From positions 1 through 21,373 of the IMG/VR virus record IMGVR_UViG_3300009169_000116: DNA of 21,373 nt. The stretch is one strand, 5' to 3'. The notes beneath the pieces were generated by a model. That model was given only the letters and a program-made list of their open reading frames with translations, was not told the DNA's origin and made no database searches. Both the position numbers and the translations under genes were made by a program. This DNA comes from a virus. Shown piece after piece: positions 5,856 to 21,363 of this stretch; the first letter of the stretch is position 1; each line of letters begins with the position of its first letter.

Positions 5856-5867
5856 AGGATCTCTCCG

Positions 5868-6335: not shown

Positions 6336-6350
6336 AAGTCTCCTGTCAGG

Positions 6351-6542
6351 TTAAAACCGGTCATCCGAATGCTTCTTCAGCAACTCTTTTACGGAATCCT
6401 CAACCAGCTTTAACCCTTCGAGACGACCCATCATGAAGCGATAACGCTCCATGTCGGCAATGCTGCCGTTAAGGACGATGCTCTCAGAGCTCTCACGGAG
6501 CTTTCTGATTTCTCTCAGTACTGCTTCTGCAAATTCAAGCAT
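6351..6542 (-). CDS. Small helical protein (63 aa)
   Basis: A 63-residue product from the ATG at 6542, predominantly alpha-helical and charged (EFAEAVLREIRKLRESSES and MMGRLEGLKLVEDSVKELLK). A longer reading from a GTG at 6578 would add 12 residues unlike the rest and would run through the terminator hairpin at 6562-6584, so the ATG is preferred. Its ribosome site is weak (GGAA). Function is not recognised. Its position just before the co-chaperonin gene, 15 bases away, puts it in the head assembly cluster. Confidence 0.65.
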   Translation of the reverse strand: MLEFAEAVLREIRKLRESSESIVLNGSIADMERYRFMMGRLEGLKLVEDSVKELLKKHSDDRF

Positions 6543-6556
6543 GGTGGGGTTCCATG

Positions 6557-6584
6557 AAAAGCAGAGGGTAGTGCGCACCCTCTG
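6557..6584 (-). terminator. Intrinsic terminator after small basic gene
   Basis: A perfect 8-bp stem (6562-6569 with 6577-6584, CAGAGGGT and its complement) with a 7-base loop is followed on the minus strand by CTTTTC. It lies 12 bases after the stop of the 82-residue gene and about 15 bases before the next ATG. The short T-run suggests partial termination, separating portal-level from scaffold/capsid-level expression, or an attenuator. Confidence 0.6.
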
Positions 6585-6596
6585 AGGCGCTTCAAC

Positions 6597-6845
6597 TTAG
6601 TAAATCTTAACTGGACGATTACCGTCCTTCTTCTTGACGGTCTTCACAGCGCCCATGACGCCGCCTTTGCCCATCTTTCGCGACTTACCGGCCTTCGCAT
6701 ACGCAATGGCTGCGGCTTGCTTGGTCGCTTCCTTCACGCTGCCAGGCTTGCTGGTGCCGATCTTGCCCTTCTTTTTGAAGGAACCGACCATCTCACCGAT
6801 GTTGGAGCTAATCGTCTTTTGGCTTGAGCCACGTTTGAGCGGCAT
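6597..6845 (-). CDS. Small lysine-rich phage protein (82 aa)
   Basis: An 82-residue basic protein beginning MPLKRGSSQKTISSNIGEMV, a start I associate with a widespread family of tiny phage proteins in head gene clusters. The rest is lysine/glycine-rich (FKKKGKIGTSKPGSV, KQAAAIAYAKAGKSRKMGKG, KTVKKKDGNRPVKIY). The ATG at 6845 is chosen over longer in-frame readings because it has an excellent AAGGAGG ribosome site placed within the last codons of the portal gene. The N-terminal pattern and a short helical repeat suggest a regulated, possibly DNA- or capsid-binding peptide. No function is established from the sequence. Confidence 0.8.
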   Translation of the reverse strand: MPLKRGSSQKTISSNIGEMVGSFKKKGKIGTSKPGSVKEATKQAAAIAYAKAGKSRKMGKGGVMGAVKTVKKKDGNRPVKIY

Positions 6846-6846
6846 A

Positions 6847-9165
6847 TCAACCTCCTTGCCGTGATGCCTGCAATTGCAGGCGTTCTCGATCGATCTGCGT
6901 TGACTGTTGCAGCTTCTGCTGCTCGAGTTGCAACTTTTGTTCGTTGAGTCGGATCTTCGCCTGATCGGCAGCAGCGCGCTGCTCGATCTCCTTCTCCTTG
7001 AGCGCGACCAACGGGTCTTCGCCACCGCCTGCGGTGCCAGCAATCTGGTCCTGCATCGTGCGAACTTCTTGCATGTACTGCGCGACTTTGATGGCGACCA
7101 TGCCTTCCTTCTGGATAGCTGACACCATGCGATCCGGATCCGTTCCGTACAGCTTGAATAGATCGGCCTCGACGTCTTCCTCGGCCTTCAAGCGCACGTG
7201 TTCGAGAACGTGCTGCTGTAGCACCATCGCGGCCATCGGATTGCCTTGAAGAATCGGCGAGAGGCCCATCATCAAGTGCGTTGCAATGTGCGCATCGTGC
7301 TGCTGACCAGCAAACGCCTTCAACTGCATGCCGTTTAGCACCGAAGCGTTCTCGGTCGCAGGATCGCGCGGCATCTGCGTGTGCTGCGGCAACAGGATGC
7401 CGTCGATATCACGTACGTTGAGCGCCGCGTACACGCGGTAATACGCTTCGTACATGTTGTGCATTTGCGGCGCGCCTTGAGCGAGCTGCAACTGCATTTG
7501 CGCGAGCTGAATACGCTGCGCGGTGCTGAAAATGTTGGGGTCGGCGACCGGAAGCACCGACACCATCTTGTTAAAGTCGGCGCGCTTGATCTTTCGGCTC
7601 GCACCCGGCACTTCGTACGGGTACTCATCCGGCAGATACTCGCCAAAGCCTTCAAACAGCAGTCGGAACTCCATCGACTGCGCGTAGTGCAGTCGCTTGT
7701 GGATTGCCGACATGACCATCGAGCCACGTTCGAGCAATGCCAGCGTCGTTCCAACCTGCGCGTACTGATTGCCATCGCCAACCTGCATGTCCGCAGTGCT
7801 GGAGAGGCGCTTGCCGGCATCAACCAAGAACCCAAGCAGCGCAAACAGCACCTGACTCGGCTCTTTGTACGGCAGCGGCAAGAGTGACGACGAAAGTTCC
7901 GCGCCACCGGCGTCAATGTCACGCCATTCGCCCGGCTGGATCGGATCAGAATCGTCCGCGATTCGCGCGCCACGGGCTTTGAAACCAGCAGGCAGGTTTG
8001 CGAGCGTGCCGGCGTCAATTAATTGACGAAGTGCGGTCGTTGCAGACTTCGAAAGGCTGCCGACCAAGTGCACAAAGCCCAAACCGTACGCGCCGGGACC
8101 TTCCACGAGCACGTAGTGCACGTAATAGTTGCGACGACGCTTGAGCGGATCGTCTTCCTTCCAGTTTCGGCGCACACCAACAACACGAAGCGTGTCATCG
8201 GCCAGCGTAACGACGTACGGGAGCTTAATTTTGGTCGGATTGCCATTCTCGTCCAGGTCTTCAAAGCCCGGAATGTCCAAATCGACCAACATTTCCAACA
8301 AAAACACTTCGCCAGCGCTGTCTGTCGGCTGAACACCGACCACTTTGTCAATCGCAGCCTGAATTTGGCTCGGATCAACAGGCGTCGGCTCCAAATCCAC
8401 CGGCACATCAAGGTATTCGCCAGCCAAAACACGCTTGCGGAACTCGTTGGAGTCCATCGCAATGCGATGGGTAAGGCGCGGGCACTGCGAAATGACACTC
8501 GACCCGTTGTACGGGATGTAAATGTCGTCGGCCAAGCACAGTTTGGACACCATTCGGCCCAACTGAGCGTCGTAATAGACCTTCTTGAACGTCGAACCAC
8601 CGTATCCGGTGTAGTACAGGAGCTGATCGAACTCCGGTGTGTACTCTTCCATCACCGTGGTGATCTGATAATTCATGAAATCCTGCACGCGCGAGGCCTG
8701 CTGGAACTTGTCCACGGTCTCTTTGCCCAGAATTTGAGTGCGGACAGGGCCGCCAGCCGGCATTAGCTCACGGAAAGCCTGTGCCTGGAACTGAATGATC
8801 GCCTCTTGCAGCATCGGATGCGTCGCACCCGAGGCACCACGGAAAGGTTTCGTGCGCTCTTCCATGCGCAAGCCCAGCAGATCCAGCCCCTTGGCGTACA
8901 TCTGCTCCCAATCCGAGCGCGATCCCTTGTCGGCCTCGAACATCGAGGCCACGTCGATCGAAATACGGGCCAAGGCTTCCGGCTCAAGGACCTCGGCCAG
9001 GTTCGCATAGAAGTCCACTTCCTGCGCTTCGGCCTCGCCAATCTCGATAACCGCGCTGCCATCGTCCTCAAGAACGATCTCAATGTCCGGGGCAGCCGCT
9101 TCCTCGTCCGCTACCACGATGATGTCCGTGGCAGGGGCTTGGTTAATAGCTTTATCAATTGGCAT
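6847..9165 (-). CDS. Portal protein
   Basis: A 772-residue protein with the architecture of podovirus-type portals. An acidic N-terminus (1-60) is followed by the clip/wing region beginning SDWEQMYAKGLDLLGLRMEE and a conserved PFRGASGATHPMLQEAIIQF. The stem region has FVHLVGSLSKSATTALRQLI and DAGTLANLPAGFKARGARIA, then the crown-side helix around LLALLERGSMVMSAIHKRLH. The last 70 residues are a Gln/Glu/Lys-rich coiled coil (KEKEIEQRAAADQAKIRLNE), typical of a barrel or ejection-related tail. Portals form the dodecameric channel through which DNA enters and leaves the head and on which the terminase docks. It lies downstream of the terminase as usual. The ATG at 9165 has a modest GGA ribosome site. 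Confidence 0.93.
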   Translation of the reverse strand: MPIDKAINQAPATDIIVVADEEAAAPDIEIVLEDDGSAVIEIGEAEAQEVDFYANLAEVLEPEALARISIDVASMFEADKGSRSDWEQMYAKGLDLLGLRMEERTKPFRGASGATHPMLQEAIIQFQAQAFRELMPAGGPVRTQILGKETVDKFQQASRVQDFMNYQITTVMEEYTPEFDQLLYYTGYGGSTFKKVYYDAQLGRMVSKLCLADDIYIPYNGSSVISQCPRLTHRIAMDSNEFRKRVLAGEYLDVPVDLEPTPVDPSQIQAAIDKVVGVQPTDSAGEVFLLEMLVDLDIPGFEDLDENGNPTKIKLPYVVTLADDTLRVVGVRRNWKEDDPLKRRRNYYVHYVLVEGPGAYGLGFVHLVGSLSKSATTALRQLIDAGTLANLPAGFKARGARIADDSDPIQPGEWRDIDAGGAELSSSLLPLPYKEPSQVLFALLGFLVDAGKRLSSTADMQVGDGNQYAQVGTTLALLERGSMVMSAIHKRLHYAQSMEFRLLFEGFGEYLPDEYPYEVPGASRKIKRADFNKMVSVLPVADPNIFSTAQRIQLAQMQLQLAQGAPQMHNMYEAYYRVYAALNVRDIDGILLPQHTQMPRDPATENASVLNGMQLKAFAGQQHDAHIATHLMMGLSPILQGNPMAAMVLQQHVLEHVRLKAEEDVEADLFKLYGTDPDRMVSAIQKEGMVAIKVAQYMQEVRTMQDQIAGTAGGGEDPLVALKEKEIEQRAAADQAKIRLNEQKLQLEQQKLQQSTQIDRERLQLQASRQGG

Positions 9166-9206: not shown

Positions 9207-11342
9207 TTAATCTTGGTCGCGGAACAGCCGACGAACAAATTCCATTAACTGCTGATTGTTCATTCCTTGCGCAAGGTTTTCGACGCCGGGTATGTCCTGC
9301 GGAGCCTGCGGCAGTTGGCCGATGCCCTGCTGCACTGCTGGAGGCTCAGGCCTGCCGATGGGCTGAGGAGCACCTATTCCGGCGCGAAGGCTAGATACCG
9401 GCTTAGTCCTGGCGGCTTCTTTGTATGCCAATGCTCTTGGCGGGAGGTGGTAATCACTTTCCTGAATCGCCGCCACGTCGAGTTTTTTGAACAAGTCAAC
9501 CAATGCTGGGTCTACGTAATTAGTAGATAGCGCCAGCTCTTTATCGTCTAGGCTACTAAGCAATGCGTTGCCCGTAGCACGCCCAACACCCTTGACCTGC
9601 GTGACTGCTGATCCCAGACCGGGAATTTCTTTTACCTCTACGGTCGTGACAGGAAGACCTCTTGGATCCCGTAACGAATAGACCTTGATAGTTCCTGCGC
9701 GAAAGGCCTTTTTGTCCTCTGAAGGGTAGTTTCCGTCATCGGCATAGCCCCCTACAGAATGCTTAAGATACGCTCCCTCCAGTTCCGTCGCGTCCGGCTT
9801 TTCAAGCCTTCGCCACGTGTAGCCTTGAAGAGGACTTCCTTCTGGATAGGAAACTAACGGCGCGCTGACCCCCTCAAGGAACGGCTTGCCATCAACAGGT
9901 TTGTTATCGCGAATCCGGGACACTAACGCCTTTCGTTCTTTTCGTAGAGCCTGTAGTTTTACAGAACCACGAATAGCGTCTTCGTAACGCATGTTATTGA
10001 TCTGGTTGACAGGAAGCGTGGCCAGGTAGTCAACCAAAGACTCTTCATCAAGGACTTTCTTAAGCGCTCCTTGGGGGTTTAAGTCATAAATCGGCTGCTT
10101 CTTTTCGATAGCGGTGCGAAGCTCTTTTGGCAAGAGCCTGGGGTTTGACAGGAGGAGCGCTCTCATGTCATCTGACGTGTTAAACTGACTGCTTAGGATG
10201 GGTTCCGTTGGAGAACTTCCTGGTTTAACAAAAGCGGGATTTCTATATCCCACGTAATCGATTCGTGGGTTTATTTCTTCGGGTCGAAGACGCTCACCAA
10301 GTAATCGATCCTTGGTAGCGTCCTTTAATCTTTGAAGTTCAGTCTTGGCTTGATCCGAAAGTAGGTTACCGTATTCGGGATCTCCGATCGTCTCTTGCGC
10401 AAGTACCGTACCTCGCATGCCCGTCATCTCGTCATAGATGGCGTTGATGTCTTGTATGGCTTCCTGGGCGTTTGGGCTTGGATAAAAACGCGATTCCCCC
10501 GTCTCTGGGTTTACGCGAGTCTTCCCTTCCTTTGCAACGTCCGCAAGGTATTTGCGTATGCCGCCTGGCCCCCCAAGTTCTTCGCTAGTCAGCTTGCCTT
10601 CACGAATAGCTTTGTAGATCGGATCGTCCTGCGTACCAAATTGTCTGGTGTAGTAGTTACGGACTTTTGTCTGTAAAAAGTTATTGATAGCCGATAGGTT
10701 GGCATCGGGCAGCGTGGAATGTTTCTTACCCAGTCGTTCCTGGGCTCTTAAAATAGCGCGTGGGACATAGCCTTTAGGTACACGGCCGGTGGTGGTGGCA
10801 CTTGCGCCAGTTCCTGTAACCGTAAACGGAACAGGGGGCGCCTGCGGCGCATCGAGCACAATGCCTTCGCCTTTCGGCCGAACGATCTGCGAGACAGGAC
10901 CTGTGCTCGGTACACGCGGAAGCGGTGTGAGGTTCTCCGCCAAAAATTTCGTCATGCCAGCGGGACTCGAGACGGCTTCTTTGCCGTACTCGGCCAAGGC
11001 CTTTGCCGCACTCTTTGCGGTCTTTACCGGCTCCTTCGCCGCACCTTCGAGTGCCAGCACTGCCGCATCGTACGCAGCAGTGTCATAAGGATCAGCCGTA
11101 CCACGCAACCCTTCCGGGCTCTTCTGGCGCTGACGCTCCATGAAGCCGCGAAATACTTTGTAGACCTGCTCGGGCATCTGCGCGAGCCCTTCGTACACAT
11201 CGACGATGGCCTCGCCACCGATCTGTGACAAGAACTCCGGATCATACTGACGCGGATCGCGCCACGTTCCCGCATTAGGATCAGCCGGCTGCGGCTTACC
11301 GCTCGCCGGTCTCGGGACGATCCTGCTCAGATCCTTGGCCAT
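9207..11342 (-). CDS. Large phage protein with PcfJ-like domain (711 aa)
   Basis: A 711-residue protein. The start is taken as the ATG at 11342-11340, which overlaps the stop of the 1303-residue gene as TGATG behind an AAGGAAG ribosome site; a GTG one codon earlier is disfavoured. The N-terminal half is helical and low in recognisable motifs. Around residues 505-610 it carries TWRRLEKPDATELEGAYLKH, SVGGYADDGNYPSED, then TIKVYSLRDPRGLPVTTVEV and AVTQVKGVG. This is the pattern of the PcfJ-like domain found in phage and mobile-element proteins, with a Ser in place of the usual Cys of HCVGGY. The C-terminal 100 residues are Pro/Gln-rich. Large proteins of this sort between terminase and portal may be virion-associated or injected, but no experimental function follows from the sequence. 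Confidence 0.8.
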   Translation of the reverse strand: MAKDLSRIVPRPASGKPQPADPNAGTWRDPRQYDPEFLSQIGGEAIVDVYEGLAQMPEQVYKVFRGFMERQRQKSPEGLRGTADPYDTAAYDAAVLALEGAAKEPVKTAKSAAKALAEYGKEAVSSPAGMTKFLAENLTPLPRVPSTGPVSQIVRPKGEGIVLDAPQAPPVPFTVTGTGASATTTGRVPKGYVPRAILRAQERLGKKHSTLPDANLSAINNFLQTKVRNYYTRQFGTQDDPIYKAIREGKLTSEELGGPGGIRKYLADVAKEGKTRVNPETGESRFYPSPNAQEAIQDINAIYDEMTGMRGTVLAQETIGDPEYGNLLSDQAKTELQRLKDATKDRLLGERLRPEEINPRIDYVGYRNPAFVKPGSSPTEPILSSQFNTSDDMRALLLSNPRLLPKELRTAIEKKQPIYDLNPQGALKKVLDEESLVDYLATLPVNQINNMRYEDAIRGSVKLQALRKERKALVSRIRDNKPVDGKPFLEGVSAPLVSYPEGSPLQGYTWRRLEKPDATELEGAYLKHSVGGYADDGNYPSEDKKAFRAGTIKVYSLRDPRGLPVTTVEVKEIPGLGSAVTQVKGVGRATGNALLSSLDDKELALSTNYVDPALVDLFKKLDVAAIQESDYHLPPRALAYKEAARTKPVSSLRAGIGAPQPIGRPEPPAVQQGIGQLPQAPQDIPGVENLAQGMNNQQLMEFVRRLFRDQD

Positions 11343-14300
11343 CACTTCTTCCTTTTAGTTTCAGGAGGCAACGTGATGTTAACCGGGCGATCCACTCCCT
11401 TGTAGTTGGCGTACTTGACGAACGGGTTGAATGTCTCCGCGACATCGCCAGTGTAGTCGTATCGATCCTTCACGACCAACGTGCCATCGGGCAACCGCTC
11501 GTACACAAACTGCCCAAGCGTGTTACGCAGATTGCCAGACTCACCGACGTTGAAGTCCGAGTCCAACATCGCCAGCGGCATTCCCGTCTTCGGATTGCGG
11601 CGACGGATCTGCTCGCGGTGATGCGCGTAGTCCACGACTCCCGGCAGCGGCTTACCCGTCTTCTCGCTCAACGCAGGATTGCTCTCCGCGATCGCGATCA
11701 GCTCACGCAGCTTCGCAAGTTCTTGCGCAGAGAAACTTCCTTCGGTCAACGGTGCGCGCTGTTTCCTAGGATCACGGACGGACTCAGCATACGTACGAAC
11801 CTGCGCGGGAGCTCGCTCTAAAAACTGCTGAAGTGCCATTGCTATACCAGGAGCAACCGACTCTCCGCCTTTGGCAAAGCCAGGCACGTCCATGTTCAGA
11901 CTTTGATCCCCGAGCCGTTCATCACGGACCATGCCACCCCCCTTTGGCATGTTGGTCATGTTATTCAGATAGCTCTGATAACGATTGCCCAACTCCATCG
12001 CAGCGACGGAATCCAACGTCGGACGCGAGTTGCCACTCGGAGCAAGCAGACCCGGACGAGGGCCCTTGGCCATGAGCTGCGACTGTATAACAGCGTCTTG
12101 ATACGCATCGGGCAGATTGTCCGGATTATCCTTTGCCGTTCCATACAGCCGCTTCAATACGTCCAGCATATCTGGAGTGGTGAAGTATCCCGGTGGCGGC
12201 GGCTTGCCGCCGATACTTAGCGTTCTTTGCATTTGGCTAGGGCCTTTGACGCTATCTGGCGTAAAGCCACCGTAGTAACGCGACGCCTCGCCGCCATCGG
12301 CAAACCGACGCGCGACTAACGGGCCAGCACGATCGAGCGTCGAGCGAGTCAGGTTCTTGCGAGTGAGATTGCTCACGTCTTCCTTACGTCCCTTGAACTC
12401 TTCCATCAACGCAGCAAGCTGCTCACTGGCTGACCCTTGGTCCGTGGACCCTGATCCTTTGCCAGCGGCTAACGACTCAAGGCTCATGCTCATCGCCTTA
12501 CCGCGATCGGTCGCAGCAGACTTCGTAGTGGTGCGCTTCACGCTACGGGCGTTCGGCGACACACGCACTTCCGTCGTCTCTTGCGCCGGCATGCTCGCGA
12601 GCAACCGCTCAAGCTCCGCCTTGGCAGAGTCGTCCTTGTCCGCTTCGCCGCCCTCGGAAAACATCAACGGCTGCACCATCGGGACGTACGGATTCTGACC
12701 CTGCGTGCGCTGCTGCGGACGCAACATGTCCATGTACGACTGGTACGTGCTGCCACCGAGCCCGGTGTACGGGGCGGAGGACTGTAACGTGTCGCCAATA
12801 CGGAACGTCGAAGCAGGGCTCGCGAACACCGGGATGTCCTGCGTGCGCGTGCGGTACAGACTCTCCGTCGGAGCGATGCTCGGCTGGGAGGCCGGAGCCG
12901 CTTGAGCGGTAAAGCTCGCTTGCGGCATGGACGTCGCGGTGGGGCGAGACGGAGCAGCAGGAGCTGCCGGAGGCGGCGTGTATCCCTGGGCTGCTCGGGA
13001 TTCCTGTAGCTGATCGTAGACCACTTCAGGATCCGGTGGTTTCGGCATGCCAGAGTAATCCACATATCCGCCCGGACGAACAACCACGCCCGAGTTCAAA
13101 AAGCCCACGCCGGGTCGGTTCTCGTTTTTGCCGTAGTTTGAGTAGTGCGTTGCCGCTTCCCACGGAGTGTCGATACCGGCCGCCGCTAAGTCAGGGTTGG
13201 CGGCGATGTACTCTTGCCACTTGAACTGATTGGCATAGATGTTCGGGTCGTACGCAAGATCCGCGCCCCAATCAAAGTTGGCGCTCTTGTCCCGATGGTA
13301 CTGATAACCCGGATCATCCGGCTGGGCAGCGCCCTTATAGCCGGTGAGCTGCGCCGCTCTCGAGAACGACATGCCGGGGTTTTGGACGAGCACGGCTAAC
13401 GTGTCGGTGAACGCCTTCTGCTGTTCACGAGCGAGCTTCATGCCCTCAAAGGACTGATCGTCAGTCAGCGCCGGTCCGCCATTGGCGAGCTTCTGCAAAT
13501 CCGATCGCGCCTCACCGCCTTTAGCAAAACTCATCAACGCACCACCCGGTGCGAGAATGCGATTGCCAAGGCGATCCGTGTAGTAACCAAGCGCCTGCGG
13601 ACCGCCCAAGACGGTCGGCGAGAGGTTCGGGTTACGCGCCAGCATCTGCCCGACCATCGGGCCTTGGTACGCCTGGATCGGGTTGTAGCTGAAGGGCAGT
13701 GTGCCGGGGAGCATGGCTCCTGGGACGTTGCCAAAGAACTGCGGCTGACCTGGAGTGAACGTGGTTCCCGGAACGCCCGGCAACGCCTGCGTCGGTCCAG
13801 TCGGACGAGTCACGTTCGTGACCGACCCCGGAGTAGACGCGATGGGCTGGGTCGTGCCAGTCGGAGTACCTGTGAACAGGCCCAGATCCACACGGCCACG
13901 GTCGCCACCGAACATGCGCTCATACGCCTGCATCAAGGACGACGGGGCAGGCGTCACCACACCCGGAGGAGTGGGAGGCGTCGTGGTTCTCGGCACGCAC
14001 CGGCCGAGCACCGTACTAAACACCTGACCCTCCGGGCACGTCTGAGGTGGCGGGGGCGGAGGAGGAGGCGGGGGTGGGGGCGGCGGAGGCGCAGCTGGTT
14101 CGCACTTGCCCGTAACGCGATTGCGCACCGAACCTGCCGGACAATCGTCAAGCCTGACTGGACGGCAGTTGCCCGTTGCCGGGTCGCGCTCATAGCCAGG
14201 TCCGCAGTCCGTCGGCGGGGTCGTCACCGGCACGCATCGGCCGAGCACCGTGCTGTAGACCTCGCCTTCCTTACAGGTCTGAGGAGGCGGAGGTGGGGGC

Positions 14301-15253
14301 GGTGGAGGAGGCGGCGGGGGTGGGGGTGGCGGCGGAGGAGGTGGGCACTCGGCCGTCACCGGAATGATCCTGCCGTCCCAGCACGTTTTCATGGCCGGGG
14401 GCGGAGGAGGTGGGGGTGGAGGCGGAGGAGGAATTGGCTCGCACTTACCCGAAATCGAACTATACGCGCTACCCGGCGGACACTCTGTCGGGCCCATCGG
14501 CACGCACTCGCCCGTAACCGGCGAACGCTCGTATCCGGCAGGGCAATCCTTCGGTGGAGGAGGAGGCGGGGGTGGAGGAGGTGGCGGCGGAGGCGGCTCG
14601 TCCTTGTCCTTCGGCTTTGCGCAGCGACCGAGCTCGTAGTCAAACTCCATGCCCGGAGGGCACTCACGGTTCGGTTCACCGGTCGGTACGCATCGGCCTT
14701 GGTCAAAGTTGTAGGTGCTGCCCGGAGGGCAGGTTGGCGTTGCCGGACGCGTCGTCTCAGGGTTTACGCAAATGCCACGGATCGGATCGAACACCTCGCC
14801 TGCCGGGCAGATCTGATCCACCGGAGAGCCGACGTTCGGGATGCTCGTGAAGTCAAAATTCTGGTCGAAAAATACCGGGTTCACCTTGCCGTCCGGCAAG
14901 CGCATGTCGAAGAACGGGTTGTTCGGATCGCCAGTGAAGTTGATCGCCGGCTGGTCCTTGTATCCCGCATCACGGAACTGCGCGGCAATCGCGTCGAGAT
15001 CCGCTTGCGTCACGCCTTCAGGCAACGTGAATGCTGGCGCTTGGCTCACGGGCGGTGGTTCGTTAAGCCCCCGTGTTGGCCCTTGGGCCGCGAGCAGTTC
15101 TTCTAGCGACGTCGGCGTCGACACCTCCGGCTGAACAGGGGTCTGCGCCAATTGAGCAAGCAGCTCCGCTGCCGTTTCGGGGGACTCGGCGGATCGAGGA
15201 TCGTAAAACTCTCCGAGCATGTCGCTGCTCGAATACGGGAAGTTCGTTGCCAT
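11342..15253 (-). CDS. Giant modular protein with Cys modules, polyproline rods and FxxGGE motifs (1303 aa)
   Basis: The start is the ATG at 15253 (AGGGGG ribosome site 6 bases upstream); a TTG one codon earlier is rejected. The N-terminal 145 residues are followed by ten short modules of the form CPxGxxYxxxxGxCxP (about residues 150-425), with polyproline stretches of roughly 12-22 residues after modules 3, 5, 6 and 9. A Gly/Thr/Pro-rich section comes next. Four copies of F-[AS]-x-G-G-E-[AS] follow, at bases near 13509-13533, 12647-12665, 12285-12307 and 11859-11884. Between the first two lies a WQEYIAANPDLAAAG...HYSNYGKNENRPG segment, like repeats in large surface and adhesin-type proteins. 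The C-terminus has LGQFVYERLPDGTLVVKDRY. It is likely a virion-associated or ejected protein, by position between terminase and portal; no family name is certain. Confidence 0.85.
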   Translation of the reverse strand: MATNFPYSSSDMLGEFYDPRSAESPETAAELLAQLAQTPVQPEVSTPTSLEELLAAQGPTRGLNEPPPVSQAPAFTLPEGVTQADLDAIAAQFRDAGYKDQPAINFTGDPNNPFFDMRLPDGKVNPVFFDQNFDFTSIPNVGSPVDQICPAGEVFDPIRGICVNPETTRPATPTCPPGSTYNFDQGRCVPTGEPNRECPPGMEFDYELGRCAKPKDKDEPPPPPPPPPPPPPPPKDCPAGYERSPVTGECVPMGPTECPPGSAYSSISGKCEPIPPPPPPPPPPPPAMKTCWDGRIIPVTAECPPPPPPPPPPPPPPPPPPPPPQTCKEGEVYSTVLGRCVPVTTPPTDCGPGYERDPATGNCRPVRLDDCPAGSVRNRVTGKCEPAAPPPPPPPPPPPPPPPQTCPEGQVFSTVLGRCVPRTTTPPTPPGVVTPAPSSLMQAYERMFGGDRGRVDLGLFTGTPTGTTQPIASTPGSVTNVTRPTGPTQALPGVPGTTFTPGQPQFFGNVPGAMLPGTLPFSYNPIQAYQGPMVGQMLARNPNLSPTVLGGPQALGYYTDRLGNRILAPGGALMSFAKGGEARSDLQKLANGGPALTDDQSFEGMKLAREQQKAFTDTLAVLVQNPGMSFSRAAQLTGYKGAAQPDDPGYQYHRDKSANFDWGADLAYDPNIYANQFKWQEYIAANPDLAAAGIDTPWEAATHYSNYGKNENRPGVGFLNSGVVVRPGGYVDYSGMPKPPDPEVVYDQLQESRAAQGYTPPPAAPAAPSRPTATSMPQASFTAQAAPASQPSIAPTESLYRTRTQDIPVFASPASTFRIGDTLQSSAPYTGLGGSTYQSYMDMLRPQQRTQGQNPYVPMVQPLMFSEGGEADKDDSAKAELERLLASMPAQETTEVRVSPNARSVKRTTTKSAATDRGKAMSMSLESLAAGKGSGSTDQGSASEQLAALMEEFKGRKEDVSNLTRKNLTRSTLDRAGPLVARRFADGGEASRYYGGFTPDSVKGPSQMQRTLSIGGKPPPPGYFTTPDMLDVLKRLYGTAKDNPDNLPDAYQDAVIQSQLMAKGPRPGLLAPSGNSRPTLDSVAAMELGNRYQSYLNNMTNMPKGGGMVRDERLGDQSLNMDVPGFAKGGESVAPGIAMALQQFLERAPAQVRTYAESVRDPRKQRAPLTEGSFSAQELAKLRELIAIAESNPALSEKTGKPLPGVVDYAHHREQIRRRNPKTGMPLAMLDSDFNVGESGNLRNTLGQFVYERLPDGTLVVKDRYDYTGDVAETFNPFVKYANYKGVDRPVNITLPPETKRKK
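13985..14809 (-). repeat. Ten Cys modules with polyproline/G-rich tracts inside the 1303-aa gene
   Basis: The coding repeat gives ten modules, each about 17 residues with two cysteines. Examples are CPAGEVFDPIRGICV, CPPGSTYNFDQGRCV, CKEGEVYSTVLGRCV and CPEGQVFSTVLGRCV; the last two are near-identical, suggesting recent duplication. Module six is degenerate (CWDGRIIPVTAEC). The proline rods are written in mixed CCN codons, so the plus strand is nearly all G with scattered C, T and A over 14046-14092, 14281-14342, 14398-14431 and 14555-14596. Confidence 0.9.
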
Positions 15254-15293
15254 CAAGGCCCCCTGAAGGGTGTATGCCTTGACATTCTAGGCT

Positions 15294-16796
15294 TCAATAG
15301 TATTCAGGGGCAAGCGCTCGATTTGACGGCTCTCCTACTTCGTCAGTCTGCAAGTTCACGAAGTTCCCTTGACGGAAACGCATGATCGCCTGCGTCGTCG
15401 AGTCCACCATGTCGTCGTTATCACCATTCGGAAACGCCGCACACTCTTCGACAAGCTCTTCCGCCCAATCGGTATCCGGTGCCCACACGAGCCCCGCTTC
15501 GAACACCGGTGCTACCGCGTTCGCGCGACTGACCTTATCCGTGCCCGACCTGCGTCCACCCGGTGTGTACATGGTCACCGGAATGCCAAGCCTTCGAAGC
15601 TCCTGCTGCAACGTCACACCGGTCGCCTTCGCCTCGATCAGCACGTTGTCAGGGTTCCAATGCTTGTACTCGTCCTTGGCAATGCGCTTCAGTTCCGGGA
15701 AATCCCACCGCCCACGCTTGACGTCTAACAGGATGATGTTTGGCCCTGAGTCTTGGTCCGGGTAAAACACACCCCAGGTCGTGATCACCGAGAAGTCGGC
15801 CGTTTCCTTTTTGCTGTAGGCGGTGTCATAGCTCTGGATGATGTAGTTCACGATCGGCGGTTCGTCGTACTGCCACACGCGCCACCACTCACGCTTGAGG
15901 ATTGCACCCTCGTCGTTCGTCGGCTGCTGCTGGTACATGGCGTTCCACTTCTGTACCGACAACGACGCCTTAACCGCCTCCAACTCCTCGAGTTTCCAGA
16001 ACTCCGGCCACAGGGGCTTGCCACTTGGCAGGATCGCCGGGAACTCAATCACCTCCCACCGATCCGCCCCGCGACTGGACTGTGCCTTCAACAACCGCGC
16101 CGTCAGGTCCTTGGTCCCCCAACGGGTCATCACGAGCACAATCGCACCGCCCGGCTGCAAACGAGTACGCGGACCGCCCTGGTACCAGTCCCACGCGTTC
16201 TCCAAAGCCAGATCCGACAGGGCGTCTTGCTCCGAATGCGGATCGTCAATAATCAAAATATCGGCACCACGTCCCGTCACCGCACCGCCGACACCGACCG
16301 CAAAGTAACTCCCGCCGTGGTTCGTGTCCCACCGGCCAGCCGCCTTACTGTCCTGCTTCAACTGCACCTCGGGAAACAACTCCTTGTACCGGTCCGAGTC
16401 CATCAGATCACGCACCTTACGGCCGAATTTGACGGCTAACTCTGCGGTGTGGGTCGCTTCAAGGGCCTGGGTTCGCGGATCACGGCCCATGAGGTACGCC
16501 GGGAGCAGGTACGAGGCGAACTCGGACTTCGTGTGACGAGGCGGCATGTTCACGATCAGGCGCTTCAAGGTCCCATTGGCAATGCGATCGAACGCAGAAG
16601 CCATGCGCTTGTGGTGTTCACCAAGGATCGCGGACGGCCAGACGTAGCGCACGAAGTCGATGAAGTTAGCACGGGCCTTGTCTTGCGTCTCAAGGAGCAT
16701 GAACCGGTATTCCAGCTTGGCACGCTCTATTTCGATTTCCTGGGGGACCGCGCTCATAGGGTCAAATTGCTTTTCATATGCGCAAAATTTTTGCAC
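15294..16796 (-). CDS. terL: Terminase large subunit (TerL)
   Basis: A 500-residue protein if it starts with the GTG at 16796, or 487 residues from the ATG at 16757; the sequence does not decide the start because neither has a strong ribosome site. The ATPase part has a Walker A variant PPRHTKS (residues 85-91), a Walker B ILIIDDPH (180-187) and a coupling motif VLVMTRWGTKD (220-230). The RNase H-like nuclease follows, with the acidic residues D324 (SYDTAY), E388 (LIEAKATG) and D461/D462/D465 (DDMVD). This is the terminase_6C type. It cuts concatemeric DNA and drives it through the portal. The ORF lies just after the HNH gene. No small terminase is recognisable upstream. Confidence 0.97.
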   Translation of the reverse strand: MQKFCAYEKQFDPMSAVPQEIEIERAKLEYRFMLLETQDKARANFIDFVRYVWPSAILGEHHKRMASAFDRIANGTLKRLIVNMPPRHTKSEFASYLLPAYLMGRDPRTQALEATHTAELAVKFGRKVRDLMDSDRYKELFPEVQLKQDSKAAGRWDTNHGGSYFAVGVGGAVTGRGADILIIDDPHSEQDALSDLALENAWDWYQGGPRTRLQPGGAIVLVMTRWGTKDLTARLLKAQSSRGADRWEVIEFPAILPSGKPLWPEFWKLEELEAVKASLSVQKWNAMYQQQPTNDEGAILKREWWRVWQYDEPPIVNYIIQSYDTAYSKKETADFSVITTWGVFYPDQDSGPNIILLDVKRGRWDFPELKRIAKDEYKHWNPDNVLIEAKATGVTLQQELRRLGIPVTMYTPGGRRSGTDKVSRANAVAPVFEAGLVWAPDTDWAEELVEECAAFPNGDNDDMVDSTTQAIMRFRQGNFVNLQTDEVGEPSNRALAPEYY

Positions 16797-16816
16797 GAGT
16801 TGACAAGTTGATCAAC
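16782..16816. promoter_or_regulatory. Two palindromes at the HNH-terL junction
   Basis: GCAAAA-T-TTTTGC (16782-16794) touches the candidate GTG of terL, and GTTGATCAAC (16807-16816) spans the stop codon of the HNH gene. Both are perfect. With no loop to speak of they resemble protein binding sites more than RNA hairpins. They may be operators or terminase/HNH recognition sites; chance cannot be excluded given their short length. Confidence 0.35.
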
Positions 16817-17141
16817 CGGGGCCCTTTTTTCTACCGGGGTGGGGGTGCATCTCCATATGGCACGGACGACAAAGCCACATGACCTCCAGCGGACGGGAGT
16901 AATCAGGGTGGTGCATCTGTGAGCTAGTGGATTGGCACACGAAACACGGCTCGCGCTTGAGTTTCCCTCGGCGCAGATACGTATTCGCATATGCACGGGC
17001 GTTTGCACGTAGCTTGGCAACGGGGCCTAGCTCTGAGTGGGAGGGGCGCGTCTTGCGCATATACGCTGCATGGCAGGACTTGCAGTAACGCTGCGGAAGA
17101 CGGTCGTTGATGCGGAAGCAGTTGGAACAAGTTGTTTTCAT
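16812..17141 (-). CDS. Small HNH-type zinc protein (109 aa)
   Basis: Read from the ATG at 17141. The N-terminal part has two CxxC pairs (SNCFRINDRLPQRYCKSCHA; first pair CSNC from residue 5). After a basic helix (AKLRANARAYANTYLRRGKL) comes a second zinc/HNH-like part: CFVC, then MHHPDYSRPLEVMWLCRPCH and a final MEMH. HHPDYxxPLxVxWLCxxCHxxxH is the compact HNH-related motif common in phage genes. HNH proteins encoded beside terL in other phages assist terminase cutting, which is the leading hypothesis. The full catalytic Asn of a classic HNH is not obvious, so a structural or DNA-binding zinc protein is the alternative. A TTG at 17177 would add 12 residues, but it lies on the likely -35 box. 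Confidence 0.75.
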   Translation of the reverse strand: MKTTCSNCFRINDRLPQRYCKSCHAAYMRKTRPSHSELGPVAKLRANARAYANTYLRRGKLKREPCFVCQSTSSQMHHPDYSRPLEVMWLCRPCHMEMHPHPGRKKGPG

Positions 17142-17177
17142 GGAACGTATTGTTCCACGGATACAAAACAGTTTCAA
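17141..17177 (-). promoter_or_regulatory. Candidate promoter with operator palindrome for HNH-terL, probably leaderless
   Basis: Reading on the minus strand, TTGAAA (17177-17172) is followed after 17 bases by AACAAT (17154-17149), a fair sigma-70 pair. A start site about 7 bases on would fall at 17142, right before the ATG at 17141. The -10 box sits inside a perfect palindrome, TGGAAC-5-GTTCCA (17141-17157), which could be the site of a repressor or of the gene product itself. No ribosome site precedes the ATG. Confidence 0.4.
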
Positions 17178-17701
17178 GCACTATCGGATGTATGAAATCG
17201 GGCATTTGCCCCTGCCTTTACCAAGCCGGCCGTTTTTTTGGAGCCGCCCCCCTCAAAGAATTCTGACCAGGACGAGAAGAAACGAACACGACCCGCGCGC
17301 CACGGCTCGCGGATCACGAACACCGAGCCACGGATCGAGGCCGATCGATCGCGCATCGAGGCCGACGCGCGCCAGCTCACGGATCGCGCACCACGGATCA
17401 CGAACACCGGCCATCGACGACGACAACAGATCACCGATCCGAGATCCGCGCGCCACGGCTCCCGGATCACGACCCGAGGATCGAGGATCCCGGATCACAT
17501 ACAAAGCAGCACGAACCACGGAGCAGGGCGCGACCCCCTCGCGCCAAGCTTGACCGGAGACCAGCCCAGAAGGGCGAGCTTGAGACCGACGCTCGCGATC
17601 GAGATCGCACATCACCAGGCCGAGCTTGAGATCACATACCAACTCGCTCCAACGAGGCATACCTGGTCAACTCTCAACTCGACAACGAGCACCCGATCGC
17701 C
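17158..17701. other. Non-coding GATC-dense gap between accessory operon and packaging genes
   Basis: About 540 bases with no convincing gene. The open frames here are long on both strands but translate to low-complexity Arg/Ser/Ile/Thr strings (SRITNT, FVIRxxR) generated by the DNA repeats. They lack plausible starts with ribosome sites and continue antisense to each other. The gap holds the candidate HNH promoter at its left edge, the GATC-rich repeat block in the middle, the repeated 11-mer CGAGCTTGAGA at 17575-17585 and 17621-17631, and the tail of the terminator of the glutamine amidotransferase gene at its right edge. Confidence 0.7.
17294..17496. repeat. Degenerate direct repeats with 13 GATC sites
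   Basis: A 26-base unit is repeated with one mismatch at 17294-17319 and 17447-17472 (core CGCGCGCCACGGCTC, then GGATCACGA). A 16-base unit, CGGATCACGAACACCG, is repeated exactly at 17310-17325 and 17394-17409. Partial variants (CCACGGATC, GGATCGAGG, CCCGGATCAC) fill the rest. GATC occurs at 17312, 17333, 17343, 17347, 17382, 17396, 17429, 17436, 17443, 17465, 17479, 17486 and 17493, against less than one expected by chance in 185 bases. A 6-bp hairpin GGCTCG/CGAGCC spans 17305-17329. Confidence 0.85.
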
Positions 17702-17730
17702 CAAAAGAAAGGGCGCCACATGGGCGCCCT
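17702..17730 (-). terminator. Intrinsic terminator of the amidoligase-glutamine amidotransferase operon
   Basis: A perfect 8-bp stem (AGGGCGCC at 17710-17717 with 17723-17730) with a 5-base loop is followed on the minus strand by TTCTTTTGG. It lies 27 bases past the stop of the amidotransferase gene (17757). This is the strongest terminator in the window and isolates the accessory operon from the packaging genes. Confidence 0.88.
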
Positions 17731-17756
17731 CTCTCGCTCGATGAGCTCGCGATCGA

Positions 17757-18701
17757 TCAGTCAGTCACCCACGGATCGCGCAGATAGACGCCCGAGCTCG
17801 ATGGCGGCTCGATGCCCTCGCCCTCGAACCAATCCGCAATCGTCTCGACGACGAGCTCCGGATCATTCCACGCGAGTTCGCCACTCGCGCCAGTGTTGTC
17901 GTCCTCGATTGCATTGATGAGCGCAGCAGCCTTCGACGGAGCATCGAGCACCCACTGGGTGAGTGTTCCCCGGATGTACGAATTGCGCGCCGCGCGCGTG
18001 ATACGAGGCAACGACTCGCCCGACGGCATCGATCGCGACCGTGAGCTCGCGACATAGGGCTCGATGTCGTCGTCGTCCCACGTGTAGCCCGACCAGATGC
18101 GGCTCGACGTGTAGCGAGTGCTCACCGAGCGCGCGCCGACTCCGAACTTCTGCGCGCTCCACGCATACGTGTTCGACAACCACGCACCACGGAACTCGAC
18201 ACCGGCCGCGCGATTGATGATCACCGCCGACCCGCTCGCTGTCATCATCCCGAACTTGTTCGAGCTTCCGATCAGGCTACCGACGAACGATTGCCACGTC
18301 GGATCAAGCACGATCGACTCGTCAGCCTCGACGGCCGGCCGAATCACGTTTCGGATGAAGTGCCACGTGTCCGACTTTGATTTGTCCCACGCATTACCCG
18401 TCGAGAGAATCCCGTTATGTGCGAGCGCAACGCGAGACGTGACCCCGTACGGGTGACAATTTTCGAGATCGATGTCGCCGTGAGTCATCATCCGCGCGTG
18501 CCACACAGATTCGCGCCCCTCGATGTGCTCACGATAAAACGCGATGAACTGATCGACCGAGGCCGGCAGAGCCTTCACGACAACAAGCTGACCGCCGCTT
18601 GAATACATGACGCCGATGCCGTCCCGATTGCCCGAGTAGACGTCCGCTAGGAACTCATCCGAGAAGGTGGTGCTCGATGGCTGATGAACTAGTAAACACA
18701 T
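17757..18701 (-). CDS. Class II (Ntn) glutamine amidotransferase-like protein (314 aa)
   Basis: The protein begins MCLLVHQP, leaving Cys2 as the N-terminal nucleophile once Met is removed, the hallmark of class II glutamine amidotransferases. It also has NRDGIGVMY (25-33), HARMMTHGDI (68-77), ENCHPYG (80-86), the oxyanion element ALAHNGIL (92-99, N96/G97) and SDT (110-112). Such domains release ammonia from glutamine for a partner synthetase. This one has no attached synthase domain. Residues beyond about 170 are unlike GlmS or PurF and are Ser/Arg- and acid-rich. The ATG at 18701 has GGAGG 8 bases upstream and lies 21 bases after the amidoligase stop, so the amidoligase is its likely acceptor partner. 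Its true substrate is unknown. Confidence 0.9.
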   Translation of the reverse strand: MCLLVHQPSSTTFSDEFLADVYSGNRDGIGVMYSSGGQLVVVKALPASVDQFIAFYREHIEGRESVWHARMMTHGDIDLENCHPYGVTSRVALAHNGILSTGNAWDKSKSDTWHFIRNVIRPAVEADESIVLDPTWQSFVGSLIGSSNKFGMMTASGSAVIINRAAGVEFRGAWLSNTYAWSAQKFGVGARSVSTRYTSSRIWSGYTWDDDDIEPYVASSRSRSMPSGESLPRITRAARNSYIRGTLTQWVLDAPSKAAALINAIEDDNTGASGELAWNDPELVVETIADWFEGEGIEPPSSSGVYLRDPWVTD

Positions 18702-18722
18702 GATGAAAACCTCCGAGGCCTG

Positions 18723-20144
18723 TTAGGCCGCTTCCGAGTGTTGAAAGAGACCCGCCGTACGATCCGCGACATAGGCGCGCATGACGCGCGTCTCCGCTTC
18801 AAGGTGAGTCGCACAGTAGGCCAAGAACGCGTGAGCATTGAGCGCGCTCGAGCTCGTCTCCGCTCGCGCGCAGTATTCGAGAATGGCATGGGAGAACTCG
18901 ATGGCCGAGATCACAGCCTCGTATTTCAACGAACCGCGAAAGATCCGAAACTCGATCGTGTCGCGTCCGGTCAGGTTGATCGCCTCATACCGATCAGCCG
19001 AAAGGTGCGCAGTCTCGACATCCTTCTCGACGACCTTGCAGAACGACGTGGAATACCGCCGGGCGATCGCAGTAATGAAAGCATCATTCCCCGGATCGTT
19101 CACGAACGTGACCGCGCGCGCGATCGTGAGATTCGAGAGACCGGATCGGCTCACGTGAACATGGAGGCCGCACGTCGTCGTTCGATGGCTGCGAAGCCCT
19201 CGAACCAGAGCAGGATCACGCAAGAACGTAAAGAGCTCTCGATGTGCCGGCAGACTCTGCGGATGGGTAATCATCTCGAACCCGCTCGACAGACTGCCGT
19301 CACGCTCGAAAAAAACATGACGACCGAATGTGCCGCCATTCACTGACTGATGGATGGCGCGCGCCGCCTCTTCTGGATCGCGACTGTAACCCTCGACTTC
19401 GAGCTCGACGCCCATGTATCGATTGAACTGCCGACACCAGTCATCCGCTCGAAACTCGAACGCACCCTTCGAAGAGTGGTAGCCCTGAATAACTCGACGC
19501 TCTCGGATGTAATCGACGTGCATGTACATCTCGCGATCCTCGTCATACTCGAAGTCGTCCGCGTCCTGATGAATCAGGCAGCGGCTACCGTCCTGATCGA
19601 TAGCGGGTCGGCTGCTGTCACAGTGCACCCATGCGTCGTGATACTCCGACCACGTGTAGCTGTCGTCCCGGCATGATTCACAGACGAGCTCGCCGCCGTA
19701 CGCGTCCGCGAGATCACCTATCGGGAACGACTCGCCGCAGCACTCGCACCCAGAGAAGGAGCCCCACTCGGACAGGCGATCGACCGCATAACTGCGATCG
19801 TCCTCGACGAACTCCCAACGATGGAACAGGCGCGACGACTCTCGATCACTGACCACGTAATCGAGAGACGCCAGATGCCACTCAAGAGACGGCGAGAAAA
19901 CATCCTCATCAGCGGTAAGCCTCGCCACCTGCGAGACGAGAGACCACGGGCTAGCGTCATCACAACGACGAGCCGCCTCACACAGCCCGGCGAACCACTG
20001 CATGCGCTGCCGGAATTGACGGTAGCCGCCGAGAGTATTCAACGGCTTAACGAGCCGATCAGCGATCCGCTGCGCAAGTGCCTCCCGACGATCCGGATCG
20101 GCGAAAACGGCTTGGAAATAGGGCAATTCGAAAATGTTCGACAT
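18723..20144 (-). CDS. Amidoligase-family enzyme with N-terminal zinc ribbon (473 aa)
   Basis: Residues about 240-420 carry the pattern of the amidoligase family (glutamine synthetase-like, ATP-using COOH-NH2 ligase; Pfam Amidoligase_2). This comprises GVELEVE (245-251), ERDGSL (280-285), FEMITHP (289-295), CGLHVHVS (325-332), DRYEAINL (384-391) and TIEFRIFRGSL (396-406); the acidic and His residues are those expected to hold metal-ATP. Residues 1-130 are helical and not recognised. Residues 133-158 form a putative zinc ribbon (CECC ... CESC), followed by an acidic, Tyr/Trp-rich stretch. The family is predicted to make amide or peptide bonds on proteins, peptides or cell-wall material. The downstream glutamine amidotransferase gene supports an ammonia or amino-group transfer. 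The ATG at 20144 has AGAGG 7 bases upstream. Confidence 0.87.
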   Translation of the reverse strand: MSNIFELPYFQAVFADPDRREALAQRIADRLVKPLNTLGGYRQFRQRMQWFAGLCEAARRCDDASPWSLVSQVARLTADEDVFSPSLEWHLASLDYVVSDRESSRLFHRWEFVEDDRSYAVDRLSEWGSFSGCECCGESFPIGDLADAYGGELVCESCRDDSYTWSEYHDAWVHCDSSRPAIDQDGSRCLIHQDADDFEYDEDREMYMHVDYIRERRVIQGYHSSKGAFEFRADDWCRQFNRYMGVELEVEGYSRDPEEAARAIHQSVNGGTFGRHVFFERDGSLSSGFEMITHPQSLPAHRELFTFLRDPALVRGLRSHRTTTCGLHVHVSRSGLSNLTIARAVTFVNDPGNDAFITAIARRYSTSFCKVVEKDVETAHLSADRYEAINLTGRDTIEFRIFRGSLKYEAVISAIEFSHAILEYCARAETSSSALNAHAFLAYCATHLEAETRVMRAYVADRTAGLFQHSEAA

Positions 20145-20197: not shown

Positions 20198-20230
20198 CAA
20201 AAAGAAGGGGCGAGACAACAGCCCCGCCCC
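20198..20230 (-). terminator. Intrinsic terminator after the DUF932 gene
   Basis: GGGGC (20207-20211) can pair with GCCCC (20221-20225), or GGGGCG with CGCCCC (20225-20230), in a GC-rich hairpin followed on the minus strand by TTCTTTTTGC. It lies about 30 bases past the stop of the DUF932 gene and separates that gene from the amidoligase pair. Confidence 0.75.
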
Positions 20231-20259
20231 CTCTTTTCTTCGAACGCCTCGATGCCTGG

Positions 20260-21363
20260 TCAAACTACATCGAGCAGAGCTCCCGCCGTCTCCTCGAACT
20301 GGACGCGCTCGGCCGTCCACGGGATCGAGCGCGCATAAGCTGTCGCACCAGTCACCGCATCGAACACCGATTCGATTGGCCGTCCCTCCTCTTCAAGATG
20401 TACCGCCGCGATCCGCTCGCCGATACGAGCCCCGAACCGACCCGCCAAAAACTGCTCGACCTTATCCAGCTTCGACGACTGTGCAGATCGCAGCACTGTT
20501 GTGATGTTCGACGAACTCGCGCGCGAGTATTCAAGCAGTGCAGGAGCCGCCTCCTCGATGAACCGATCCGGAGCACTGGCAGTGTGGCGAATCGAAATGC
20601 TTTCGAGCTCATGCGCGCCCCAGACGATCCGATTTTTGCAAACGTAATCGAACAAGAATGTTTTGATTTTCAGAGCACCCGCGCCGACTTCCGAATTTGT
20701 GACAAAGAACCCACGCGCGAGCGCGCCCGTTTTGCCGTCACGCCTGTTAGGTAACTCGATCCGATTCTGCTCATCGGCAAGGAACACGAACATATCGCGA
20801 TCGCTCGCGAACAACGTCGTGTTGTCTCGCGTGACCTCTGCAAGGCCTTTTCCAAATTCTCCCGGCACTCGAAAGTCACCCGTCACGCCATCCCCGAACC
20901 GATCCTCGAGGGCGCGCACTACATCCGAGTTCCAGATGCGACCATAGCGCGCACCAGTGGCCGCGCGGACTTCGAGGGCTTTTTGGTTTTCGCCCGTGTA
21001 CAACATCCCAACATCGGCCGCATCTCGCTCAACCTTCAAACCATAGTTGAGGCAATCGGCAACAAGCGGAGCCGGTAACGTCCGCAGATAACTAGCCGGT
21101 GCTCCCGACAGGCTCGCCAACTGGCCGAACGCCCAATTTGACGGAGCCGCCGTCCTGCCGTTGGAGTCTTGAATCAAAATGCCGCGAGAGTATCCGCGCT
21201 CATCGTTGACAGGTACGGCCGTGAGACTGCGAGAGCTCACAACCGAGGCATGCGACAACTCGCGCACCTGTTCGAGCATGGCGCGCATGGCCGGTAATGA
21301 CGTAAACCGCTCTTCTGGTGGACGTGTTGCCCACTGCCGCGAGGCATCTAGTAACGTCGCCAT
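20260..21363 (-). CDS. DUF932 family protein (367 aa)
   Basis: A 367-residue protein matching the phage/plasmid-associated DUF932 family (also TIGR03299-like). Visible blocks are VPVNDERGYSRGILIQDSNG, the WAFGQLASLSGAPASYLRTL helix (residues about 78-97), RYGRIWNSDVVRALEDRFGD, ASDRDMFVFLADEQ, GFFVTNSEVGAGALKIKTFL with VCKNRIVWGA, and a C-terminal helical part. Its function has not been established; members occur in plasmids, phages and integrative elements, often in accessory regions. The ATG is at 21363, 10 bases from the window edge, so its ribosome site and promoter are largely out of view. It has its own terminator, suggesting separate expression from the amidoligase pair. Confidence 0.9.
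   Translation of the reverse strand: MATLLDASRQWATRPPEERFTSLPAMRAMLEQVRELSHASVVSSRSLTAVPVNDERGYSRGILIQDSNGRTAAPSNWAFGQLASLSGAPASYLRTLPAPLVADCLNYGLKVERDAADVGMLYTGENQKALEVRAATGARYGRIWNSDVVRALEDRFGDGVTGDFRVPGEFGKGLAEVTRDNTTLFASDRDMFVFLADEQNRIELPNRRDGKTGALARGFFVTNSEVGAGALKIKTFLFDYVCKNRIVWGAHELESISIRHTASAPDRFIEEAAPALLEYSRASSSNITTVLRSAQSSKLDKVEQFLAGRFGARIGERIAAVHLEEEGRPIESVFDAVTGATAYARSIPWTAERVQFEETAGALLDVV

Follow-up and report, generated by a model that had tools for sequence, protein, structure and literature searches.

A compact amidoligase and glutamine amidotransferase gene pair in a virus genome fragment: a conserved accessory cassette and candidate amide-forming enzyme

Introduction

Phage genes for an amidoligase and a glutamine amidotransferase (GATase) have already been described together in print (PMC10580990, PMC3517423, PMC3890496). 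The pair was reported in the OM43 (Methylophilales) phages MEP401 and MEP402 (PMC10580990), and for related phage gene sets the usual proposal is a cell-wall modification directed against superinfection (PMC5498523, PMC11945000, PMC10580990). Class II GATases have also been mentioned in the haloarchaeal viruses PhiCh1 and ChaoS9 (PMC8651126), and Phage-ZRK32, which carries the genes of the pair and two more, promoted growth, for which a role in nitrogen metabolism was suggested (PMC10945688). Here, we analysed an amidoligase gene and a stand-alone class II GATase gene in a 21.4-kb fragment of a virus record (IMG/VR record IMGVR_UViG_3300009169_000116, 21,373 nucleotides; this whole stretch is called the window below). 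We propose that they probably encode two subunits of one glutamine-dependent, adenosine triphosphate (ATP)-using, amide-forming enzyme, carried on a self-terminated accessory cassette. In view of the papers above, a first-pass annotation of the window had overstated the novelty of the pair; what it had said of the two genes as a unit, of the folds, of intact active sites and of a minimal version of the system holds.

Results

The Two Genes Are Nearly Always Found Together

Both proteins served as queries against viral contigs, and the ligase also against contigs of bacterial and archaeal genomes; the matches were screened with profiles. Each scan comprised the best 80 loci, and the results on pairing cover relatives down to about 25% identity. 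The ligase scans of viral contigs yielded 97 distinct ligase open reading frames (ORFs), five of them at a contig end. A GATase gene adjoins 88 of the 92 ligase ORFs with room for one, in the same order and on the same strand, with a median gap of 18 nucleotides (nt), and in the GATase scan of viral contigs a ligase stands beside every GATase with room (66/66). The first-pass annotation had named a failure of the homologues to occur together in other genomes as one possible refutation, and these counts exclude that outcome. On bacterial genome contigs, nearly all of which have Clostridia-type titles, all 29 ligase ORFs are accompanied by a GATase.

By greedy clustering, the pair is present in 80 lineages at <60% identity, and its members occur in phages of Mycobacterium, Clostridia, and beta- and gamma-proteobacteria. 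Ligase distances and GATase distances between relatives are correlated with r = 0.84, while the best of 2000 permutations reached 0.20. Gene counts also match, at 2:2 in contig G009 and 3:3 in Acinetobacter phage vB_AciJM_313. Where a second ligase of a different family (PF14395) occurs, in G010 and G011 and likewise in StenR_269, a second GATase adjoins it. The pairing of ligase and GATase is thus nearly obligatory.

Some genomes carry the pair more than once. In the 102.7-kb contig L017, a few kb separate two ligase-GATase pairs that have diverged from each other (5047-6989 and 9986-12379), and two of the three copies in vB_AciJM_313 score identically and lie near both ends of the linear record.

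Both Proteins Retain Complete Active Sites

The GATase matches the Pfam family GATase_4 (PF13230; E 6e-6, 25.8 bits, cut-off 23). Its structural model has a mean predicted local distance difference test (pLDDT) score of 78, and Foldseek matched it to the GlmS glutaminase domain, EgtC and PurF, with EgtC level with GlmS. Sequence profiles place it closest to the GlmS and PurF glutaminases, and no EgtC chain appears in that list. The protein carries Cys2, the H68-A-R70..T73-H74-G75 block and H95-N96-G97. Residues C2, H68, R70, T73, G75, H83, H95, N96, G97 and D111 are found in 77 of 77 lineages, and H74 in 77% of these lineages. Together, the alignment with GlmS and this conservation reveal a full set of GlmS-type glutamine-site residues, with D111 corresponding, in our own reading, to D123 of GlmS.

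The ligase matches Amidoligase_2 (PF12224) with 29.3 bits, above the cut-off of 22 (E 1e-6); its best individual match is confined to the C-terminal 48 positions of the profile. In PHROGs, it matches phrog_16683 at 6.5e-31 and a family annotated as 'amidoligase enzyme' at 5e-10. Sequence comparison of the ligase with solved structures gave nothing meaningful, and fold comparison was needed. The mean pLDDT of the ligase model is 62, while its core (residues 241-360 and 391-460) lies mostly at 80-95. Against the PDB, Foldseek assigned a probability of 1.00 to glutamine synthetase and YbdK, and of 0.97-0.99 to Dop and PafA, the depupylase and the Pup ligase, respectively. The E values of these matches go down to 7e-5; the template modelling (TM) scores are low because the N-terminal half of the model is uncertain. 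Among viral models, the ligase matches proteins annotated as phage amidoligases.

The catalytic motifs of the ligase are equally well kept. G245-x-E247-x-E249, D282, E290, H328, R363, N390 and E398-x-R400 are present in 77/77 lineages, and H330, T396 and S284 in 99% of them. Thus, the amidoligase fold with intact motifs, and the class II GATase with Cys2, the HAR...THG block and the oxyanion element, both of which the first-pass annotation had read from the letters of the window, are confirmed by folds and conservation. In an HHalign comparison with Escherichia coli GlnA, H328-x-H330 of the ligase falls on GMHCH and E398-x-R400 falls on IEVR; in glutamine synthetase, these residues bind metal and phosphate. 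The HHalign comparisons with single GlnA and YbdK sequences had low probability, and the GlnA motif register was not used as proof.

Zinc-ribbon-like Cys pairs precede the ligase domain (Table 1), and relatives mostly have 2 to 11 CxxC motifs in the same region. One viral model matched by the ligase is annotated as a LIM domain protein. C133, C136, C155 and C158 may therefore be regarded as a putative zinc-binding site.

Relative to the nearest copies, the ratio of nonsynonymous to synonymous substitution rates (dN/dS) is 0.04-0.06 for the GATase and 0.06-0.14 for the ligase. Values of 0.04-0.14 to close relatives indicate that the ORFs are real, constrained and functional; strong purifying selection acts on both genes. 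Neither the ligase, the GATase nor the protein of the neighbouring DUF932 gene matched a PADLOC defence family up to E = 1.

Two giant-virus entries were also encountered in a fold search of BFVD with the ligase model, namely A0A1V0S9H8 of Catovirus CTV1 (a giant virus; E 3e-4) and, as a weak match, A0A3G5ADB8 of Hyperionvirus. Both are annotated as amidoligases.

The Pair Is a Self-Terminated Accessory Block

Gene order is described here along the minus strand. The GATase gene follows the ligase gene on the same strand after 21 nt, and folding revealed a terminator-like hairpin on each side of the two genes. The upstream hairpin follows the DUF932 gene and precedes the ligase gene, and is itself followed by T-rich sequence; the other lies 3' of the GATase gene (Table 1). 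Hairpins stand at both flanking places in ten relatives, some at about 50% protein identity, and in the more distant ones the stem sequences differ while the structure is kept. A terminator pattern scanner reported neither hairpin; as read from the sequence, the stem of one of them pairs into its own T-run. With a hairpin on each side, the ligase and GATase genes most likely form their own transcription unit. The layout given in the first-pass annotation, two genes 21 bases apart with a shared terminator, is therefore upheld by the ORFs, the hairpin 3' of the GATase gene and the relatives.

Table 1. Positions of the gene pair, its protein motifs and its surroundings in the window.
Feature	Position	Strand	Evidence
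Amidoligase gene (Amidoligase_2, glutamine-synthetase-like carboxylate-amine ligase), 473 aa	18723..20144	-	PF12224, PHROGs, Foldseek, purifying selection
Ligase catalytic region, residues 245-402 (GxExE, D282GS, E290, GxHxH, R363, N390, ExR)	18939..19412	-	Invariant columns
Zinc-ribbon-like Cys pairs (C133/C136 and C155/C158) preceding the ligase domain	19671..19748	-	88-99% conserved, 77 lineages
Stand-alone class II GATase gene, 314 aa, N-terminal Cys nucleophile	17757..18701	-	PF13230, GlmS profile match, Foldseek GlmS/EgtC
GATase catalytic domain, residues 1-177 (C2, R70, T73, H74, N96, G97, D111)	18171..18701	-	Conserved residues; model pLDDT mostly >85
Terminator-like hairpin 3' of GATase, then T-rich run	17705..17735	-	Fold -29.3 kcal/mol, z -3.3; structure conserved in relatives
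Terminator-like hairpin, interval between DUF932 and amidoligase genes	20199..20238	-	Fold -36.6 kcal/mol, z -5.6; structure conserved in relatives
DUF932 gene, upstream context	20260..21363	-	PF06067 E 5e-7; also in relatives without the pair
HNH endonuclease gene, past the long intergenic stretch 3' of GATase	16812..17177	-	
Terminase large subunit gene (downstream; landmark of the insertion site)	15294..16796	-	phrog_38 E 8e-117

A search with the terminase protein yielded 43 related loci that have at least 4 kb upstream. The pair lies between DUF932 and terminase in 12 of them (two of these contigs do not show DUF932); DUF932 stands upstream of terminase without the pair in 18, and the remaining 13 have neither. 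Consequently, the pair is an accessory block that is present or absent at one site in near relatives. DSL-LC04, whose terminase is 75.6% identical to that of the window, lists no amidoligase or GATase in its annotation over 25 kb around terL.

No Further Partner Recurs beside the Pair

The first-pass annotation had suggested a minimal version of such systems, and this view holds in a 65-kb sister contig (G001; ligase 92% identical) and across the 80 lineages, which have no third gene in common. In the sister contig, which is possibly incomplete, there was no match to PF08443 (RimK-type ATP-grasp), PF06094 (gamma-glutamyl cyclotransferase) or PF14395 (a second COOH-NH2 ligase). StenR_269 was matched as a positive control for the first two, and PF14395 was seen only in two large phages. 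None of these three families is among the 25 of 31 Pfam families shown for the sister contig. In an all-against-all comparison of 967 neighbouring ORFs, any one family accompanies the pair in at most 14 of the 80 lineages; several of the most widespread neighbour families consist of phage genes that lie on the other strand. A Pfam scan of 119 same-strand neighbours gave no repeated partner except helix-turn-helix and integrase domains, and no amidase or peptidoglycan-binding partner is conserved among the neighbouring ORFs of the 80 lineages. As no further module genes were detected in the sister contig, the two-gene version is real; the absence of partners in that contig is strong evidence, though not final.

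DUF932 was considered as a general functional partner and rejected, since it occurs in only 9 of the 80 lineages and stays where the pair is absent.

A Divergent Pair Appears in Haloarchaeal Viruses

In ChaoS9 (MK310226, 30818-31891) and PhiCh1 (MK450543, 29157-30224), a gene annotated as 'uncharacterized' lies 4 nt upstream of the class II GATase gene. The ChaoS9 protein (ChaoS9_220) contains G-x-E-x-E, D....E, G-x-H-x-H and T-I-E-x-R in the order of the ligase motifs. The invariant-residue pattern of the window family, present in 210 of 229 family ORFs and in 0 of 4248 other ORFs, matches ChaoS9_220, and a looser pattern, which occurs once in 200,000 shuffles of ChaoS9_220, also matches PhiCh1_200; the pattern spacings are generous and were set after the haloarchaeal sequence had been seen. 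By profile comparison, the GATases of the two groups match at 98% probability, while the match between haloarchaeal and window-family ligases is not significant. Judging from motif order and pairing, ChaoS9 and PhiCh1 therefore appear to carry a divergent ligase-GATase pair, which is the new point of the present analysis.

The earlier PhiCh1 record (AF440695, 29154-30220) shows the candidate ligase as two separate ORFs, ORF41 and ORF42, whereas the resequenced genome MK450543 has one whole gene 'by genome sequence correction'; the latter was therefore used. Neither haloarchaeal gene has a listed PhiH1 homologue, while the flanking genes have one (PMC6471424). The haloarchaeal pair is thus also present or absent as a block.

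Other Features of the Window

Along the minus strand, terminase is followed by portal, GroES-like, capsid and structural genes. The GroES-like co-chaperonin gene (5868-6335; Cpn10, E 4.5e-9) keeps its place among the structural genes in DSL-LC04 and in Pelagibacter phage HTVC027P. Between terminase and portal lies an ORF of 1304 amino acids (11342-15256, minus strand) with repeated Cys-rich motifs (e.g. CPxGxxxxxxxGxCxP) linked by long polyproline runs; in DSL-LC04, the corresponding position is occupied by a PcfJ-like gene. The intergenic stretch between the GATase and HNH genes is unusually long and contains degenerate GATC-rich direct repeats (17284-17503; a reference of about 39 nt, six copies at 62-100%).

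Discussion

A glutamine-dependent amide-forming enzyme of two subunits is the explanation that we favour, because it accounts for the pairing, the co-varying distances, the matched gene counts, the invariant catalytic residues, the folds, the purifying selection and the behaviour of the cassette. As an N-terminal nucleophile (Ntn) hydrolase, the GATase would lose its initiator Met, and Cys2 would then attack free glutamine and release ammonia. R70, T73, H74 and D111 would hold the glutamine, and N96 and G97 would form the oxyanion hole. The amidoligase would activate a substrate carboxylate with ATP as an acyl phosphate, using E247 and E249 as acidic metal-binding residues, with H328/H330 and E398/R400 also in the active site, and ammonia passed from the GATase would convert the activated carboxylate to an amide. 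The zinc-ribbon-like stretch before the ligase domain is a candidate substrate-binding part, and the cassette as a whole may alter a host or phage molecule during infection. We infer the ATP-dependent amide-bond formation, the ammonia transfer and the physical complex from these comparisons.

Several observations weigh against this proposal. GlmS-type glutaminases and EgtC-type gamma-glutamyl hydrolases share recognition residues, and ammonia supply is therefore not proven. The ligase was modelled with moderate overall confidence (mean pLDDT 62), and co-divergence of the two genes is also expected if they were simply inherited together. Clostridioides phage AR1086-1 has a related ligase for which no GATase was found, contig G013 carries a single GATase but two or more ligases, and the order of the pair is reversed in L047. 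A fusion of the ligase and GATase genes was looked for, and none was found; a literature search found no paper testing the purified pair biochemically.

The main mechanistic rival follows from the fold match to EgtC, which equals that to GlmS. In ergothioneine synthesis, EgtA is a ligase and EgtC a class II GATase-like hydrolase; by analogy, the ligase of the window could add a gamma-glutamyl or other amino-acid group, which the 'GATase', acting as an Ntn amidohydrolase, would remove or process. YbdK, a glutamate-cysteine-ligase-like protein among the fold matches of the ligase, fits such a scheme. We nevertheless consider it rather unlikely, since the sequence profiles favour GlmS and PurF over EgtC, the neighbourhood of the pair holds no further conserved step of a pathway of this type, and GATase numbers track ligase numbers even where the ligases belong to a different family.

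As for the target, the pair might amidate or otherwise alter peptidoglycan peptides, blocking superinfection or protecting the cell until lysis. This has been proposed for modules of the phiEco32/LUZ24/RIO-1 type (PMC5498523, PMC11945000, PMC10580990), and peptidoglycan is a surface polymer common to the Mycobacterium, Clostridia, and beta- and gamma-proteobacteria hosts. Yet neither the extra enzymes sought in the sister contig nor a conserved amidase or peptidoglycan-binding partner was found, and the apparent divergent pair of ChaoS9 and PhiCh1 occurs in hosts of another kind. Haloarchaea have no peptidoglycan; hence, if the haloarchaeal gene is an amidoligase, the cell wall is not the target in every member. 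A cell-wall role is therefore possible, but we regard it as doubtful. Amidation of a modified base or its precursor, protecting the phage DNA, would suit the general use of class II GATases with QueC-like enzymes for amide-bearing deazaguanines; it is very improbable, as no base-modifying gene recurs beside the pair in the 80 lineages or appears among the sister-contig Pfam families shown. Scarcely any weight is given to auxiliary nitrogen metabolism, in which the pair would aid ammonium assimilation of the host during infection. The growth promotion by Phage-ZRK32 points that way (PMC10945688), but those experiments used the whole phage rather than the genes, and spending glutamine to release ammonia is the reverse of assimilation.

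A broader and more speculative version of the two-subunit enzyme, to which we assign a low likelihood, is that one pan-viral amidating enzyme serves phages of diverse bacteria as well as haloarchaeal viruses, and recognises a target outside the cell wall through its zinc-ribbon-like N-terminal region. Such a target might, equally tentatively, be a carboxylate belonging to a nucleotide cofactor or to a conserved protein of the host. If this were true, viruses would covalently modify a universal component of their hosts in a way not yet described. The haloarchaeal pair offers a means of distinguishing a role in the cell wall from a universal role. In any case, few accessory gene pairs that one might choose for biochemical testing are so strictly linked, and the pair suits such work well: it consists of two genes with intact active sites, lacks a third partner and occurs in many lineages. 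Working as proposed, it would be a compact viral amidation enzyme.

Comparison with Known Systems

The phiEco32/LUZ24/RIO-1-type 'peptidoglycan modification module' likewise places an Amidoligase_2 ligase near a class II GATase. However, the module also contains a gamma-glutamyl cyclotransferase and an ATP-grasp protein, and in several phages a COOH-NH2 ligase. Since these three extra genes were tested for in the sister contig and not found, the window pair is not assigned to the larger module; it belongs with the two-gene phage amidoligase-GATase pairs.

Among these, the MEP401/MEP402 pair has the same gene order and strand and is 29-32% identical; RimK-type ATP-grasp and gamma-glutamyl cyclotransferase were not found in MEP401, as in the sister contig. 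The OM43 genes overlap by 10 bp and stand at the start of the early/replication region, whereas those of the window lie between DUF932 and terminase. The closest pair in the phage collection is that of Podoviridae sp. ctgrD200 (MW202733), a putative amidoligase and the next gene, with 37% and 41% identity and 5 bp between them; it differs in lying a few small genes after the integrase, and its GATase is not annotated as such. In Mycobacteriophages of the Marvin group, gp105 and gp106 are an adjacent ligase and class II GATase in the same order, but the ligase is only about 28% identical, and several records misannotate it as a GATase domain protein. For instance, the 'glutamine amidotransferase domain protein' of MG757167 (61297-62046) is the amidoligase, and the true GATase is the next gene. 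Bifidobacterium phage BP677P1 also gave a GATase-like match, beside which no ligase is annotated.

In terms of chemistry, MurT-GatD and AsnB-type enzymes perform ATP-dependent carboxyl amidation fed by a glutaminase, as proposed for the window enzyme. MurT-GatD differs in combining a Mur-ligase fold with a class I GATase, and AsnB in having a class II GATase fused to a PP-loop synthetase. At the level of genes, the finding is already in the literature, and the window copy adds breadth and constraints to these two-gene phage pairs rather than a new kind.

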